Assembly: GCF_011058215.1 (NCBI RefSeq)
Contig: NZ_JAALFG010000001.1
Span: forward strand, 625,001-689,000
From: Devosia aurantiaca
Lineage (GTDB): Bacteria; Pseudomonadota; Alphaproteobacteria; Rhizobiales; Devosiaceae
DNA: 64,000 bases
Reading direction: 5' to 3'
The number at the start of each line of letters is the position of its first letter. The stretch's first letter is position 1. A model generated the notes under the pieces. That model was not told where the DNA came from, searched no databases, and worked only from the letters and a program-made list of their open reading frames with translations. The position numbers and the translations under genes are program-made. Of this stretch, positions 1 through 26,840 are shown piece by piece.

Positions 1-320
1 TCGAAGCGCTGATGGCCGGCGCTGGCGCGATGGAGGAGCTAGAGGCTGCGCCGACCTCGGCCCTGACCTATATCAAGATCGGCCTGGGGCCGGAGGCCTT
101 CAAGCCAAGCAGTTTCGCGCTGCCCGAGGACATGGATGTCATGGCGCTTGCTGACGAAGTCGGGCGGCGCATGCAAGGACATATCGAACTCTTTCTCATG
201 CGCGACACGCCGATGCCCGCACGCCTGATGCCGCTGAAAACGCAGAGGTTTTCGGGCGCCTACGATCATCTTGCACGCGTCCCCGAGTGGACGCTTGTGG
301 ATGGCGAGGAAGAGCCATGA
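1..320 (+). CDS. addB: AddB C-terminal fragment (helicase-nuclease subunit)
   Basis: This is the last 106 codons or so of a gene that begins before the window; the frame is open from the first bases to TGA at 318-320. AddB is the second nuclease subunit of the AddAB double-strand-break repair complex, the alphaproteobacterial counterpart of RecBCD. The call rests mainly on position: the stop overlaps the start of addA (ATGA at 317-320), the usual addB-addA operon. The visible tail (ending VDGEEEP) carries no catalytic motif; the 4Fe-4S cysteine region would lie upstream or is not visible. No promoter can be seen because the gene is cut by the window edge. Confidence 0.75.
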   Translation, partial: EALMAGAGAMEELEAAPTSALTYIKIGLGPEAFKPSSFALPEDMDVMALADEVGRRMQGHIELFLMRDTPMPARLMPLKTQRFSGAYDHLARVPEWTLVDGEEEP

Positions 321-3300
321 GCGAGCGCGGCAGGCTTGTCGTTCCCTCCAACACCAGCAGAAACCAGGCCCGCGCCAGCGACCCTGCCTATTCGATCTGG
401 GTGGAGGCCAATGCCGGCTCCGGCAAGACCTATGTGCTAACCCACCGCGTGCTGCGCCTCTTGCTCGCCGGGGTGCGGCCGCAATCGATACTCTGCCTGA
501 CCTATACCAAGGCGGCCGCAGCAGAAATGCGCCGCCGCGTGGGCGATCGGCTGGCGGGCTGGGCGGTTGCGGACGAACGCAAATTAGCGACTGAAATTAA
601 CGACTTGGTTGGTTCGTGGCCCGAAGAGAAAATGTTGGAGGATGCTCGGACCCTGTTTGCCCGGGCGCTGGAGACCCCGGGCGGTCTGCGGATCCTCACG
701 ATCCACGCCTTCTGCGAAGCGGTGCTGCACCGCTTTCCGATCGAAGCCGGGGTGCCGTTCGATTTCGCGGTGATCGAGGACGATCGCCAGATCAATATGG
801 TCTTGGCAGCCAAGGAAAAAGTGCTCGCCGAAGGGCTCAAGGGAGGCGAGCATGCCGGGGCCGTCGAAGTGCTGTTCGGGCTTCTCAGCGACGACGCTAT
901 CGCCAAGGCGATCAACTCGGCCCTGAGCGAAGGGGCACGGCTTGATGCAGTGCTCCAAAGCGTGGAAGCTTCAAAGAACCGGCTCAGGAAGCATGTGGGC
1001 TTTGACGGATCGTCGATCGAGAGTCTCACTCACGAGGCAATTGCTGGCACCCTGCTAACCTCGGACGTGCTCAAGCGTGTTCAAGCGGCGTGCAAGGGCA
1101 AGTACGATGACCTCGACTGCGAAAACCTGACGGCTGATGCCCTCCGCAAAGCTTTTTCACCGACAAGGGCACGCCGCGCGGCCGGCTCATGAGCAAGGCC
1201 GAGATCACGGCCAATCCGGATTTGCATGACCTGCTGCTTGCCGAACAGGAGCGGCTGGTGCGGCTCGATGAGCGCGTCACCTCCGCGCTTCTCGTGCAGC
1301 GCAGCGAGGCCCTGCTCGACGTGTTGCAGGCCATTCGCAAGCGCTACGAGGACGACAAGCGCCGGCACTCGCTGCTCGACTTCGACGACCTGATCGAAAA
1401 GCTCGGCGACCTTTTTGCCGACCGGGCGCTCGGGCCCTGGGTGCAGTACAAGCTCGATGCCGGTATCGACCATATCCTGGTCGATGAATCGCAGGACACC
1501 AATGCGCGACAATGGCGGGTGGTGCGGGCGCTGGCCGACGAGTTTTTACCGGCGCCGGGGCGGTCAGCCGGCCGCGCTCGCTGTTTGCCGTAGGGGACCA
1601 GAAACAGTCGATCTATTCCTTCCAGGGCGCGCAGCCGGTGCTGTTCGGCGAGACCGGTCGCGAGATGGCGCGGCGGGCGCGGGAAGCGGAAAAGCAGTTC
1701 GAGGCGGTCAAGCTCCATACGAGCTTCCGGACCCTCCAGGGTATTCTGGATGCGGTGGATCGGGTCACTGACCGGCCCGATATTCAACAGGCTTTGCTGT
1801 CGGTGGATAAGGTGATCCACCAGGCGGCGCGGACGCAGGCGGGGGGACGGTGACGCTCTGGCCGCCGGTCCAGGACGTCAAGTATGAACGAACAACAACG
1901 GAATGGCCGCAGGCGCCGGTCGAGGCGGAGCAGAGTGCCCAGCGGCAGGTCGCGACCCGCATCGCGACCGAGATCAAGAACTGGATCGACAACGGCCGCA
2001 TGCTTGGCGACCGCGACCGGGCGGTGGTTGCCGACGATGTTCTGATCCTCGTGCAAAAGCGCGGTGCCCTGTTCCAGGAAATCATCCGCGCCCTGCGCAA
2101 TGCCGACCTGCCGACGCCCGGCGCCGACCGGCTGACGGTCACCGGGCACATCGCCGTGCTCGATCTTTTGGCGCTGATCGACGTGCTCCTGAACCCGGCC
2201 GAGGATCTGCAACTGGCCGCGCTCTTGCGTTCGCCGCTCTTCGACGTCAGCGAGGACGATCTTTTCGCGCTGGCACATGGGCGCGAGCGGCAGAGCCTTT
2301 GGGAAGCGCTCTTCGCTTCTTCCATTCCATCGGCCGAGATCGCCGCCGAGGCCCTCGGCCGCTGGCGTGGCGCGCTCAGCCGGGAGCGGCCATTCGAGTT
2401 CCTGACCCATGTTCTTTATACCGAAGGCGGGCTGAAGCGCTTTCATGCGCGGCTCGGCACCGAGGTGGACGAGGTCCTGTCCGAACTCTTGGAACTGGCG
2501 CTGGCGCATGAGCAGAACGAGCAGCCTTCGCTTCAGGGCTTTGCCGCCGAAATGCGGCGCCGCACGGTGACAATCAAGCGCGAACTGGCCGAAAGCGGCG
2601 GTGGCGTGCGGGTCATGACCGTGCACGGCGCCAAGGGCCTTGAGGCCCCGATCGTCATCCTGGCCGATGCCACCACTAAGCCTTCGGTGCAGATGACCGG
2701 CAAGCCGGTCTATCTGCTGAACGAGGCGCCCGGCCCCATGCTGATCCATGCCTCTGCCAAGGACCAGCACACGGTCGAAACCGTCACCATCAAGGATGAG
2801 GCGGACGCAACGCTGCTCGAGGAATATTGGCGCCGCCTCTATGTCGCGATGACCCGTGCCGAGGACGAACTCTATCTGACCGGCACGCTGAGCGCGTCAA
2901 AGACGGTGGACAAGCAACTCGACGGCTCCTGGTACCAGGCGGTGGAACAGGCGCTGGAGGCCGACCTTCATCCTGTCACCGACGATGGCATGCTGGTCGC
3001 TCGCGTCTTCCCTCGGCTCGAACCCGCACGCCGGTCGGGTCGCGGCTCTGTCCCGTCGAGCAGCCACCAGCCGCTTATTCTGGCCCCTGTGCCGCCCCCA
3101 CCAGTGCTGCCGATCGTATCGCCCTCGCGCGTCGGCGTCGAAGCGGCGCCCTTCCGGCTATTGCAAAGCGTGGCCGAGGAAGTTCGCGATGCCGAGGCCG
3201 CGCGCAAGGAGGGGCTAGCGCTTCATGCCTTGCTGCAGCATCTGGGCCGGGTCGAGCGCCCGCAATGGCGGCAGGTCGCGCCGCGTGCCTTGGAAACGCT

Positions 3301-3714
3301 GTTGCCGGAATTTCCCGAACTTCACCAGCGGGTGACAGCCAAAGCCATCGCCATCCTCGACCGGCTCGACTTCCAGTACATTTTGGATCCGACAGCCGGG
3401 CCGAAGTGCCGTTTTTGTTCGATCTCCTGCGCAATGGTGAGCCGGTGCGGGTTTCCGGGCGTATCGACCGGCTGGTGGTTGACGACAGCAAGGTCTTGGT
3501 GGTGGATTACAAATCCGACGCCAAGGCGCCCCGGTCGGTCGCCGATGTGCCGAGGAACTATATAACCCAGATCGGATTATATGCACTGGTTGCAGGTCAG
3601 CTGTTCCCCGGACGGAAAGTGGAAGCGGCAATCCTGTGGACAGAGTTGGAATCGCTGATGAATTTGCCTGCGGGGCTCATGGAGGCGGCCCGCGCGGACT
3701 TCACCCTCAGGTGA
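317..3714 (+). CDS. addA: AddA helicase/nuclease subunit, broken by four frameshifts
   Basis: AddA is the UvrD-like helicase and nuclease of the AddAB end-resection complex. Walker A AGSGKT lies at residues 33-38 from ATG 317. A superfamily I motif (VMTVHGAKGLEAP) is near 2615-2650. The C-terminal PD-(D/E)XK nuclease is marked by GRIDRL and VVDYKSD near 3455-3520. The reading frame must shift four times, each time as if one base were missing: T5 at 1153-1157, T5 at 1543-1547, G6 at 1841-1846 and T4 at 3381-3384. Adding one base at each run gives a continuous protein of about 1133 residues, the normal family length, with good conservation across every join. The start overlaps the addB stop. 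I read it as a functional gene with sequencing errors; a true pseudogene is the less likely alternative. Confidence 0.9.
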
Positions 3715-20699: not shown

Positions 20700-21250
20700 C
20701 TATCGTGGGGCGCGCTTCGCCAAAATCCGCTGCAAGGTCCGCCGGTGCATGTTCAATCGCCTTGCGGTTTCCGAGACGTTGCGGTCGCACAGTTCATAGA
20801 CGCGCTGAATGTGTTCCCAGCGCACCCGGTCGGCGGACATCGGGTTTTCAGGCGGCTCGGGCTTGTCTTCGCCGGTCGCGAGGAGGGCGTTGATGACGTC
20901 GTCGGCGTCGGCGGGCTTGCTGAGATAATCCATGGCCCCAAGCTTCACCGCGGTGACGGCGGTGGCGATATTGCCATAGCCGGTCAGCACCACGGCGCGC
21001 GCGTCGGCGCGCTTCTGATGCAGGGCCGAGACGACGTCGAGTCCATTGCCGTCTTCGAGGCGGAGGTCGACCACGGCGAAGGCGGGGGCTTTTCGGCGAC
21101 CGCGGCGAGGCCATCGGCGACGCTGCCGGCGATGCGCACGTCAAAGCCGCGACGGGCCATGGCGCGTTCGAGGCGCTGGAGGAAGGCGGCGTCGTCGTCG
21201 ACGAGCAGAAGGCTCGGATCGCCCGCCAAAAGTTGTTCGATCGTTTCCAT
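20700..21250 (-). CDS. regA: Response regulator RegA/ActR/PrrA, one frameshift
   Basis: The receiver domain (SLLLVDDDAAFLQRL; phospho-acceptor Asp in FAVVDLRLEDGNG) is joined to the near-invariant RegA helix-turn-helix (ERVRWEH-type, VSETARRLNMHRRTLQRILAKR). The frame breaks at the G5 run 21084-21088; one more base restores EKPPAFAVVDL and a 183-residue protein of normal length. RegA is the global redox response regulator of alphaproteobacteria, controlling respiration, and nitrogen and carbon fixation where present. The kinase gene regB lies 38 bp upstream on the same strand. Fis-like DNA recognition of GCG-N-CGC-type sites is family knowledge. Confidence 0.92.
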
Positions 21251-21288: not shown

Positions 21289-22610
21289 TCAGCTGGGTGA
21301 ACGATCTGTCAAATCTTGGCGCTGCCAGCGAATACTGACCCGCGCATGCTGGGCGCCATCGGCATTGTCGAAGGTTAGGCGCGCGCCGGTCCGCTCGAGA
21401 AGCGTCTTGGCGATGAAAATGCCGAGGCCGAGACCTCCTGGCTGGTGCGCATCGCTGCCGGAAGGATCGCGCGGCCGGCTGGTCAGATAAGGCTCGCCCA
21501 GCCGGGCGATCAGCTCGGGAGCAAAGCCGGGACCGTCATCGGTGATGCGGACGGTGATCGAGGCCGGGTCCCACGCGCTTTCGATGCGCACTGTTTGCCG
21601 CGCGTAGTCGCTGGCATTTTCGATGAGATTGCCGAGCCCGTAGAGCAGCCCGACGCTGCGCGGGAAGATCGGATCGGGGCCGGTGGCGTTTTCGGAATAA
21701 AAAAGGATGACCTTGCCGCGCCCTTCATGGGGGCGGCGACCTCGTCGAGGATGTCGGTGAGCGGCGCCTGGGCAAAAAGATCGGCCGGTTCGCTGCCGAG
21801 GTTACGCAGCTTTGCAAGGATCGCCCGGCAGCGCGCCGACTGGGCGATGATGAGCTCGACGTCTTCGGCGAGCTGGCTGCCGCTTTCCACTTCGGCGCGC
21901 ATTTCCTTGGCGGCAAGGGCGATGGTGGAAAGCGGCGTGCCCAGTTCATGCGCGGCCGCGGCGGCAAGGCCATCGAGCGCCGACAATTGCTCGCGGCGGG
22001 AAAGGGCAAGTTCGGTAGCGGCCAAGGCATCGGCGATCTGGCGCGCATCATGGGCGACGCGATTGGTGTAGGCGGACACAAAGACCACGCCGCAGATGAT
22101 CGAGACCCAGATGCCGATCACATAGATGCGGTTGAAGGTGATGGTCTGCACCGGATCCCAGGGCAGGGGCAGGTGCACCACCGAAATGATGGTGGCGATA
22201 ACGGCGGCGACGCCGGCAATCACCCAGGTCTGGCGCGAGGGCAGGGTGGTGGCTGAAACCGAAACCGGCGCCAGGAGCAGAAGCGCAAAGGGGTTTTCGA
22301 GGCCACCGGTCAGCGCCAGAAGCCCGCCGAGCTGGAACAGGTCGAACACCAGCTGCAGCGCTGCGACACGCGACGACAGGCGGAAATGAGCGCCATAGCG
22401 CAGGACGAGGCCGATATTGAGGGCGGCGGAGAGCCCGATCAGGATCAGGCAGGGCAGGAGCGGCAGCGGGAAGCCGAGGCCCCAGGTGACGAACAGGACG
22501 CCGATGGTTTGCCCCGCGACGGCCAGCCAGCGCAGCACGACCAGGGTTTGGAGCCGCATCGGCCGCCAGCCAGTCGGGAACAGCGCGGATATGGCGGTTT
22601 GCTCGGTCAT
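21289..22610 (-). CDS. regB: Redox sensor histidine kinase RegB/ActS/PrrB, one frameshift
   Basis: About six N-terminal membrane helices contain the quinone-binding heptapeptide GGLENPF. The H-box is AAAAHELGTPLSTIALAAKE, and the redox-active cysteine lies in SARCRAILAKL. The ATPase domain shows DDGPGF and GGLGLGIFIAKTLLERTGA. The frame shifts at the G5 run 21729-21733; one added base turns PMKGAARS into PHEGRGKVIL and gives 440 residues. The protein senses quinone-pool or thiol redox state and phosphorylates RegA. Both partners are adjacent, in the order regB-regA on the minus strand. Confidence 0.92.
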
Positions 22611-24143: not shown

Positions 24144-24175
24144 AAAGCCCCGGATCGGTGTCCGGGGCTTTGTTT
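24144..24175. terminator. Bidirectional terminator between the YgjP-like gene and PBP1A
   Basis: AAAGCCCCGGA (24144-24154) and TCCGGGGCTTT (24161-24171) form an 11-bp stem with T-rich sequence on the + side and A/T on both flanks. It serves two convergent genes. Confidence 0.9.
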
Positions 24176-26840
24176 TAGTTGCCGAAGATCATGTCCATCA
24201 GCGTTCGCTGCTGTTGCGGCGCGTCGTAGACCACTTGCGGCTGCTGCTGCTGCACCTCGGCGGGCGGCGCGAACTGCTGTGGCTGGGCCTGCTGGAAGCC
24301 CTGCTGCGCTGGCGCGCTCGGCACCCAGACCTGCTGGCCGGTTGCCGGATCGGTGACCAGCGTCATCGGCAGGCCGGTATCCGGGTCGATTGGCGTTGCC
24401 GTGGTCGGCGCCTGCAGTGGGAAGCCGGTGACCGGATCGATGGCCTGGCCATTGGCGTCATAGGTCACCTGCTGCGTCTGGCCAGACGTATCGAGCGGCA
24501 TGCCGGTCTGCGGATCGATCTGCTGGACCGGCAGGCCAGTGGCGGGGTCGATCTGCTGGGTCTGCACCGGTGCGGCGGCACTCTGCAGCGGCTGCATGCC
24601 CTGCATGGGCAGACCCGTAGCCGGATCGATGGCCACGACCTGGCCGGTGGCCGGATCGATCTGCGTCTGCACCGGCTGGCCGGTACCGCCATCGACATAT
24701 TGCACCTGCGGCTGACCGGTGGCGGGGTCGATGATGGGCAGGCCCGTTGCCGGGTCGACCATCTGCTGGGCCACGAGCTGGCCGGAATAGGACCCGCCGG
24801 GGATCGGCGTCGGTTCGCGACCGGCCAGGGCCTTGGTCATGAAGTCCGACCAGATCGCCGCCGGGACGTTGCCGCCCGAAAGCGAAGTGCCCTTGTTGTC
24901 GTCATTGCCGAGCCAGACGCCGGTGACCATGGCCGAGGTATAGCCGACGAAAAGGGCGTCGCGCGATTCCTGCGACGTGCCGGTCTTGCCGCCCATCTCC
25001 CAGGCGCCTATTCGGGGGCGCCCTTGCCGGTACCGACTTCGACGGCGGTCTCCAGCATGTCGTTCATTTCGGCAAGGATGTTGGGATCGATGACGCGTCC
25101 GGGGCCGGCATCGGAGCTTTCATAGAGCACCTTGCCTTCGACGTCGGTGATCTTGGTGATGACATTGGGGATGACCCCCATGCCGCCATTGGCAAAGGGC
25201 GCATAGGCGGAGGTGAGCTCGAGAAGGTTTACTTCCTGCGTGCCGAGCGCGATCGACGGCACCGGCGTCAGCGAGGAGGAAATGCCCATGCGCATGGCCA
25301 CTTCGATCACCTTTTCCGGGGTGACGTCGATGGCGAGGCGCCCGGCAATGGTGTTGAGCGAATAGGCAAGGCCCTGGCGCAGCGTCACCGTGCCGGCATA
25401 TTTGCCATTGGCATTGCGCGGGCTCCAACCATTGTATTCGAACTGCGCATCCTCGGCCAAGGTATCGGGCGTATAGCCCTTTTCCATCGCGGCCATGTAG
25501 ACGAAGGGCTTGAAGGTCGAGCCCGGCTGGCGCTTGGCGGTGACGGCGCGGTTATACTGGCTGGCCTGGTAATCGACGCCGCCCACCATGGCACGCACGG
25601 TGCCATTGACGTCCATCGACACGAGCGCGCCCTGCGTGAAGCCGCGCTTGGGGCCTTCGGTGGCAACCGCTTCGCGGACGATGAACTCGGCGTCCTTTTG
25701 CAGCTTGTAGTCGATCGTGGTCTGGACGATCACGTCCGAGCCTATTTCCCCGATATAGGAGGTCATCAGCGACTCGACCCAGTCGGCCACGTAGGATTCC
25801 GAGCCGGCGATGACGGTGCGCACTTCCTGATCGGGATCGATGCGGGCGGCGTCGGCTTCCTCGCGAGTGATATAGCCTTCCTGCGCCATGGCATTGAGCA
25901 CGATGCGCTGGCGTTCCTTGGCACGCTCGGGATTGGCCTTGGGGTTATAGGCAGATGGAGCTGGCAGGATGCCGACCAGCATGGCGGCCTGGCCCAGCGA
26001 CAGGTTGCGGGCGGAAACGCCGAAATAGGTCTGCGCCGCCGCTTCGATGCCGGTGGCGCCCGAACCGAAATAAACGCGGTTCATATAGAGTTCGAGAATT
26101 TCTTCCTTGGTGAAATTCTGCTCGAGCCAGACGGCAAGGATGGCTTCCTGCACCTTGCGGCCCAGGGTCTGGTCGGGGGTGAGGAAGAGGTTCTTGGCGA
26201 CCTGCTGCGTCAGCGTCGAGGCGCCGCGCGTCACTTCTCGCGCCTGCACCGATTCCACGGCCACGGCCAGAAGACCGATCGGGTCGACGCCGAAATGGCT
26301 CATGAAGCGTCGGTCTTCCGAAGCGATAAAGGCGGCGGGCACGAAGTGCGGCAGTTCGCGGAAGGTCACGGCTTCGCCGCCGGTCTGCCCGCGGTTGGAA
26401 AGCAAGCTACCGTCAGCGGCGAGAATGCGGATATTGGGCGGACGCTCGGGAATGGCCCAGGTGTTGGAAGCCGGAAGCTGCGCGCCGTAGTAAACGATGA
26501 CGCCGATCACGGCGAGGCCGGCCCAGAGGCAGGCGACAAAGCCCCACCAGAGCACACCCATAAGGAAACCGCCGCCGCGCTTCTTCTTGCGCGGACGTGC
26601 CGTTTCGGCCCGGCCGCGACGCGGTGGCCTGCCCTTGCCCTTGGGCGGCTTGCCCCCGCCGCCACCCTTGCCAGCGGTGCCGACGCGATCATCGACCGAA
26701 AAACCGACCGAATGACCCATGGCCGACGAACCGATGGTTGGCTCGACGCGTTCACCCTTGGCCTTGGCGCGTGTTTGCGGCTTGGCCTGGCGGGCGGCTG
26801 GTCTACCTACGCGGTCATCGGCCGAAATGCGGAAATCCAT
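24175..26840 (-). CDS. mrcA: Penicillin-binding protein 1A, one frameshift, repeat-rich tail
   Basis: A class A PBP: glycosyltransferase 51 domain (EDRRFMSHFGVDP, GASTLTQQVAKNLFL) followed by a transpeptidase (SxxK in QPGSTFKPF, SxN in YSLNT, KTGT near 24985). It polymerises and cross-links peptidoglycan. One transmembrane helix (LMGVLWWGFVACLWAGLAVIG) follows a basic Gly/Lys/Arg-rich cytoplasmic segment of about 90 residues. The frame breaks just before KTGT at the G5 run 25014-25018; one base restores APRIGAWEMGGKTGT and about 888 residues. The C-terminal 200 residues are a Gln/Pro-rich extension built from DPATG repeats. The gene appears to be monocistronic. Confidence 0.93.
24331..24759 (-). 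repeat. Ten-copy [IV]DPATG[LQ]P repeat in the PBP1A tail
   Basis: Ten degenerate copies of an eight-residue unit (VDPATGLP, IDPATGQP, IDPQTGMP, IDPVTGFP, IDPDTGLP and similar) occur at irregular spacings of 8-26 residues, separated by Gln-rich linkers. The DNA shows matching recurrences of GGATCGAT/CCGGCCAG. The region lies after the transpeptidase domain, so it should be periplasmic. Confidence 0.85.

Follow-up and report, generated by a model that had tools for sequence, protein, structure and literature searches.

A genus-wide DPxTG repeat tail with a conserved terminal peptide on PBP1A of Devosia

The PBP1A-type class A penicillin-binding proteins (PBPs) of the Hyphomicrobiales have glycosyltransferase and transpeptidase domains and a C-terminal extension in common, and about half of those examined end in a short hydrophobic peptide; Devosia fills the spacer of this extension with DPxTG units. 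Two described systems offer a comparison for such units. Chignolin is a designed beta-hairpin with DPETG and shares with them the D-P-x-T-G of a tight hairpin turn, although it is an isolated designed peptide and not a repeat. Choline- and glucan-binding repeats, which bind glycans, consist of short beta hairpins set in tandem on proteins of the envelope; they carry aromatic residues, whereas the DPxTG units are without them. In Agrobacterium, a member of this order, PBP1a is described as the major synthase for elongation, and a domain figure of the same paper, according to its legend, marks predicted disorder in these enzymes (PMC8546619). This makes a role in localisation plausible, without being evidence of one. 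The OCRE domain of RBM5, in the accessible part of its description, forms six antiparallel strands from five imperfect octamers and binds proline-rich tails via tyrosines (PMC5127646). A PBP1a tail goes unmentioned in the accessible parts of PMC6107284 and PMC7327166, and literature titles and abstract openings, a body of text in which subscription papers are mostly uncovered, contained no report of DPxTG repeats on a PBP, which is not proof of absence.

The locus studied here lies on the minus strand of a 64,000-nucleotide stretch of Devosia aurantiaca DNA (the window, to which all positions refer). An N-terminal ORF of 610 aa (25008..26840) encodes a cytoplasmic basic tail, a membrane helix recognized by eye, the glycosyltransferase and the larger part of the transpeptidase. 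Pfam matched both Transgly (PF00912, E 9.6e-63, over the cut-off) and Transpeptidase (PF00905, E 2.6e-25) in this frame, which stops shortly past GKGAP. A C-terminal ORF of 273 aa (24175..24996) begins just ahead of the KTG motif (KTGTSQ) and carries this motif, the transpeptidase end, the repeat tail and a C-terminal peptide; NCBIfam TIGR02074 covers its residues 2-57. Taken alone, the two halves score 506.9 and 58.8 bits against the TIGR02074 cut-off of 508.75 bits, which an unbroken relative (L002) clears at 595.1 bits. With a glycosyltransferase and a transpeptidase that includes KTG, the window protein fits a PBP1A-type class A PBP. The window genome also holds two paralogous PBP loci (L082 and L083).

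The ORF map and comparison with a close relative, G036, in which both PBP1A parts lie in one open frame of 931 codons, place a frame break at 24997..25015. All 38 named tail-bearing loci have a single PBP1A frame (one, L036, begins at a contig end). In a rough comparison with G036, based on open frames of at least 120 codons and not on curated genes, 14 of 53 syntenic proteins, PBP1A included, were split between frames. The window assembly is indel-rich, and because so many of the compared proteins are broken in it, the PBP1A break is probably assembly noise. Other split frames in the window (1-64000) affect what by eye resembles a sensor kinase (21292-22610) and a response regulator with a receiver domain (20703-21250), and a 1133-aa protein at 317-3711 is likewise split relative to G036.

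The repeat spans exactly 24331-24759. The initial annotation had given these limits correctly and had overlooked the PBP1A frame break and the C-terminal peptide past the repeats. A nucleotide repeat search found ten 25-nt copies at spacings of 27-78 nt; Tandem Repeats Finder listed no array over 24331-24759, likely because the spacing of the units is irregular. The protein contains ten D-[PG]-x-T-G units, nine of them DPxTG and one DGGTG. The annotation's count of ten irregularly spaced units is therefore borne out, but its motif [IV]DPxTGxP, offered for all ten, fits seven and fails for VDGGTGQP, IDPATGQV and TDPATGQQ. A chance origin of the repeat is excluded: when these 202 residues were shuffled 20,000 times, DPxTG occurred 0.02 times on average and never more than twice in one shuffle, whereas the protein has nine. 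All ten units start with Asp and none is LPxTG, and the window genome yielded no sortase (PF04203) at E<=0.01; a sortase anchor was accordingly rejected.

In the protein, the units lie behind the KTG and the transpeptidase end, and are followed by a Gln/Pro-rich linker and then by QRTLMDMIFGN. This agrees with the earlier description of an ordered, Gln/Pro-rich tail on a class A PBP, and the position behind the transpeptidase points to a periplasmic location. Five parts can be distinguished, all on the minus strand. The N-block (24604..24783) is a conserved core of five putative turn units (24736-24759, 24709-24732, 24673-24696, 24637-24660 and 24607-24630), which are kept in 35-38 of 38 alignment rows. 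The middle block (24457..24603) has two variable units (24529-24552 and 24496-24519), present in 29 and 24 of the 38 rows. Three further units (24418-24441, 24367-24390 and 24331-24354) make up the C-block (24313..24456), which includes the predicted hairpin MTLVTDPATGQQVWV and is again kept in 35-38 of 38 rows. The Gln/Pro-rich linker (24214..24312) contains a Pro-Pro pair, P244 and P245, that is invariant in 38 rows, and the C-terminal peptide QRTLMDMIFGN (24178..24213) combines a conserved end pattern with low dN/dS and a short predicted helix. Spacings of 9, 12, 12 and 10 in the N-block recur in 49 of 75 Devosia genomes, and the C-block motif DxxTG[QE]QVW[VA]P in 64 of 75. Relative to the window, G036 has one extra 33-nt unit in its middle block, and this one-unit difference indicates that units are gained and lost there.

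We found the tail in every one of the 75 Devosia genomes, with 4-12 DPxTG copies (most commonly eight) and a length from KTG to the protein end of 192-309 aa. This refutes the possibility, raised by the initial annotation, that the repeat is confined to one strain; an origin of the repeat itself in assembly collapse or expansion is largely refuted by the many independent assemblies that carry the tail. The total copy number is not conserved, and the five-unit core largely is. The search of other PBP1As that the annotation had proposed gave positives throughout Devosia. Outside it, 14 genera of the Devosiaceae were represented by 26 PBP1As, none of them with DPxTG; the sample took in 26 of the 61 family genomes that are not Devosia and left out the family's ninth genus (G106). 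DPxTG was likewise absent from the 27 order loci, of 30 retrieved, whose tail could be read. Three non-Devosia PBP1A ends (L193, L194 and L195) and L137 were left out of the analysis, and L109 is truncated by a contig end. Among loci from named records, 35 of the 38 that bear the tail are labelled Devosia and three are metagenome bins with wider names, and the remaining 41 loci returned by that search contained no DPxTG; these 38 loci and the 75-genome set are partly the same records.

At E<=0.001 the tail query matched 19 of 397 order genomes, twelve of them Devosia; the seven others were weak matches (26-32% identity, E 2.4e-4 to 8.3e-4). Across the phylum, at E<=1e-5, it matched one of 398 genomes, the window's own. 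The one weak match inspected, a second locus in a Devosia genome (L136 in G059), resembles nitrite reductase by eye. No plasmid or phage record matched at E<=0.01, and a mobile or phage origin of the tail was rejected.

Conservation within the tail is concentrated on the motif. Over 38 rows, mean identity to the window row was 0.91 at D/P/T/G positions, 0.53 at other positions of the repeat region and 0.41 in the linker. The tail is under purifying selection: pooled over 13 hand-picked close pairs, dN/dS was lowest in the C-terminal peptide (0.055), followed by the transpeptidase (0.08), the N-block (0.12), the C-block and the linker (0.15 each) and the middle block (0.26). The residue before DPxTG, counted for 607 units in the 75 genomes, was Ile in 372, Val in 122, Thr in 65, Leu in 24, Tyr in 13, Phe in 6 and another residue in 5; Pro stands two residues past the Gly in 390 of the 607. 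L017 was omitted from alignments A1 and A3, L036 was omitted from alignment A2 and from the single Pfam scans (leaving 37 of 38 rows), and alignment A4 comprises 22 of the 38 rows.

Modelling of the tail, which the annotation had also suggested, was done with AlphaFold2 in two runs, one for the C-terminal half and one for the tail by itself, with 38 sequences each. The first five units are predicted to fold as a beta-meander, with N-block pLDDT means of 87-93 in both runs and short strands flanking the turns. The C-block hairpin reached 85-86 in the tail-alone run, and the terminal peptide formed a short helix in both. The linker was predicted to be disordered (block means 45-56), parts of the middle block were low too, and overall confidence was modest (mean pLDDT 66.4 and 71.5, pTM 0.34 and 0.36). 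AlphaFold2 folds perfect random repeats confidently but wrongly, according to the accessible part of PMC11795689, and the meander could for this reason be false; the imperfect, irregularly spaced units lessen this concern and do not remove it. The Pro two residues after the Gly in most units is awkward for a regular sheet. At E<=0.001, Foldseek returned nothing from the PDB or from viral models, so that a known fold is neither shown nor excluded; the best structural VIA Z values were 3.3 and 2.8, with no significant neighbour, and searching solved structures by sequence, with the tail or with the N-block profile, produced no hit below E 0.3. A repeat block that does fold would be a naturally occurring example of an octapeptide turn repeat turned domain, and a good test of structure predictors on imperfect repeats.

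Past the repeats, the end of the protein is more widely shared. The pattern RTLMD[LMI][ILM]FG closes the PBP1A of all 75 Devosia genomes. A more general terminal pattern, in which two hydrophobic residues and two further residues precede [LIM][FLM][GE] close to the C-terminus, was seen in 20 of the 26 PBP1As from other Devosiaceae, for example RTLVDLINDLFGN. Other families of the order showed it in 13 of their 23 PBP1A-type proteins, against two of 384 control C-termini; a looser version gave 19 of 26, 14 of 23 and one of 384. Both patterns were defined after the tails had been viewed and the controls were open frames of at least 250 codons not checked as genes, so the contrast is descriptive. 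The 23 order proteins are the 25 best-per-genome loci minus two without a tail, three of the 30 order loci having given no tail. Ten of the 23 lack the pattern (nine by the looser version), and some of these are perhaps paralogues. Since related peptides end PBP1As that have no repeats, the peptide appears to be older than the repeats. The spacer between transpeptidase and terminal peptide differs freely across lineages, which suggests that the DPxTG block is the Devosia version of a variable spacer. Other lineage-specific ends apparently occur further afield: among L050-L080, PBP1A-type proteins of several cyanobacteria close in motifs like SWRERLKP, whereas Paracoccus has motifs like DDPLTQALRGI, in both cases after low-complexity spacers, and Agitococcus apparently has another such motif.

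We tentatively favour, at somewhat short of even confidence, the reading that the tail is an arm with a conserved docking peptide, in which a partly folded turn-repeat module sets the reach and perhaps binds something. The repeats would then be a lineage-specific spacer or adapter module within a periplasmic C-terminal arm of PBP1A, made up of the repeat module, the Gln/Pro linker and the short hydrophobic peptide. Each [IV]DPxTG unit would be a tight turn that links short beta strands, with the small predicted meander built from the first five units. We infer that the C-terminal peptide may dock PBP1A onto a partner that belongs to the machinery of polar growth or of the envelope, and that the repeats may set how far the peptide reaches and probably add a second binding surface. 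The repeat arm and the C-terminal peptide are in any case two defined elements for deletion or for use as bait. An Lpo-type activator was set aside as the partner, the LppC-like match being absent in the window genome. Of the 75 Devosia genomes, 32 have LppC-like proteins that pass the cut-off with a partial match, at about profile positions 219-400 (e.g. L240 and L241); these are possible PBP1A partners.

The variability of the tail could also mean that length and composition alone matter, and that the tail is a flexible or elastic spacer, a turn-rich and Pro-rich chain that is disordered or spring-like. The range of copy number and of KTG-to-end length would fit this reading, as would the low pLDDT of the linker and of parts of the middle block, and the unrelated low-complexity spacers that PBP1As of other lineages have at the same place. 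The fixed five-unit spacing and the near-invariant D/P/T/G positions, however, exceed what selection for length would need. The dN/dS of the N- and C-blocks likewise goes beyond it, yet the unfolded linker is constrained to a similar degree. A wholly elastic spacer fits poorly with the fixed core spacing and with the confident meander model, itself open to the repeat bias of AlphaFold2, and we regard it as somewhat unlikely, though second in likelihood to the docking arm.

A periplasmic position on a peptidoglycan synthase, together with predicted beta hairpins, would also suit a glycan-binding repeat, in which the hairpin units, by analogy with the choline- and glucan-binding repeats, would bind nascent peptidoglycan or another envelope glycan. 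In Foldseek, C-LytA (E 5.8) and alternansucrase (E 1.8) appeared only as non-significant rows. There are few aromatic residues beside the turns, and among the 19 Pfam families that matched any of the 38 tails at E<=0.1 there was no choline- or glucan-binding family. Glycan binding by the repeats is thus improbable.

The strongest match to a described domain was to OCRE (PF17780), which reached E 1.7e-10 at its best and E<=0.1 in 16 of the 38 tails. Three of the 37 singly scanned tails (L009, L010 and L039) passed the cut-off of 24.7 bits, as did proteins in three of the 75 genomes (G077, G050 and G027), and L010 aligns with the RBM5 OCRE structure 5mf9 at E 0.052; in the window genome, OCRE had no match at E<=1. 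The matches sit mostly at middle units that start with Tyr. The aromatic triplets of OCRE are missing from the 607 units, which have Ile or Val instead; the tail also differs in its spacing of 9-12 and its bacterial periplasmic setting. As to the six-stranded antiparallel twisted sheet of OCRE, the tail has a predicted beta-meander, with no significant PDB match. The window tail resembles OCRE in build, and we claim no membership of the family for it; the resemblance is likely convergence. The plakin (plectin) repeat PF00681 behaved similarly: a stretch containing DPxTG matched in 28 of 38 tails at E<=0.1, and five of the 37 singly scanned tails (L020, L023, L024, L026 and L037) passed the cut-off of 20.5 bits. 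The window tail reached 15.6 bits, below that cut-off, and plectin was rejected for it. The plectin matches listed cover 13-17 of the 39 profile positions, those over the cut-off 13-15. Weak Pfam matches were also obtained to SBDS domain II (23 of 38 tails), DUF4585 (17 of 38) and others. Weak matches to several unrelated families are the behaviour of low-complexity repeats, and because plectin, OCRE, SBDS domain II, DUF4585 and others all match weakly we gave the OCRE-like reading less weight. A more specific version of it would have the five-unit block be an octamer-repeat domain of the bacterial periplasm, with an origin separate from that of the eukaryotic OCRE domains but a similar beta-sheet joined by turns. 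Its ligand would be a proline-rich segment, belonging to a partner or to the tail's own Gln/Pro linker with the invariant Pro-Pro, and together with the C-terminal peptide it would regulate or position PBP1A. We offer this as a speculation with a slim chance of being right.

Repeat drift, in which replication slippage lengthens and shortens a tolerant tail without function, would account for the unit gained or lost between the window and G036 and for the variable middle block, but the presence of the tail in the entire genus and the low dN/dS in every part of it make drift very unlikely. That the repeat is an artefact of collapse or expansion in the window assembly has next to no probability, since 74 other assemblies, single-contig ones included, carry it; given the split proteins and the additional unit of G036, an artefact could at most explain the broken frame and a copy-number difference of one unit.

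The history of the tail does not look like one clean gain. In a tree of the catalytic part of PBP1A, in which Devosia is represented by 15 of its 75 genomes, some of them picked for short or odd frames, the tail-bearing genus as a single clade was rejected (p-AU 0.003), and two four-unit Devosia, G011 and G038, branch outside some tail-less genera. A single clean gain in Devosia is thus unsupported by this tree; the tail may predate the genus and have been lost later in places, it may have multiple origins, or the tree may be wrong. DANG and DATGQP stretches occur in PBP1A tails of other Devosiaceae genera (L103, L110, L115 and L116) and may be precursors of the DPxTG units.

Outside PBP1A, the N-block profile matched five of 385 class genomes, the window's own among them. 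The matches in the others were to a FlgI-like protein, to two portal proteins, to a frame that is seemingly antisense to a gene and to a 721-codon frame with a single unit. In the FlgI-like flagellar P-ring protein (L235), the pair DPSTGQPIIDPATGQP lies where solved FlgI proteins have a junction between two aligned stretches. Two portal-like proteins of one genome (L236 and L239) contain the pair DPATGQPLIDPYTGQP; the Pfam assignment to P22_portal was tested on the L236 stretch alone. The tandem DPxTG pairs in these FlgI-like and P22-portal-like proteins of other Alphaproteobacteria suggest that DPxTG is a generic, reusable turn unit that has been used repeatedly.

The opposite end of the window protein also has a shared feature. 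PBP1A starts with MDFRISADDRVG (26679-26840, minus strand), and a similar start, such as MDLRLSPDDRVG, is visible in 20 of 26 other Devosiaceae loci. A second SVDDRVG stretch is present in the window, and the PBP1A start is a possible short cytoplasmic binding motif.
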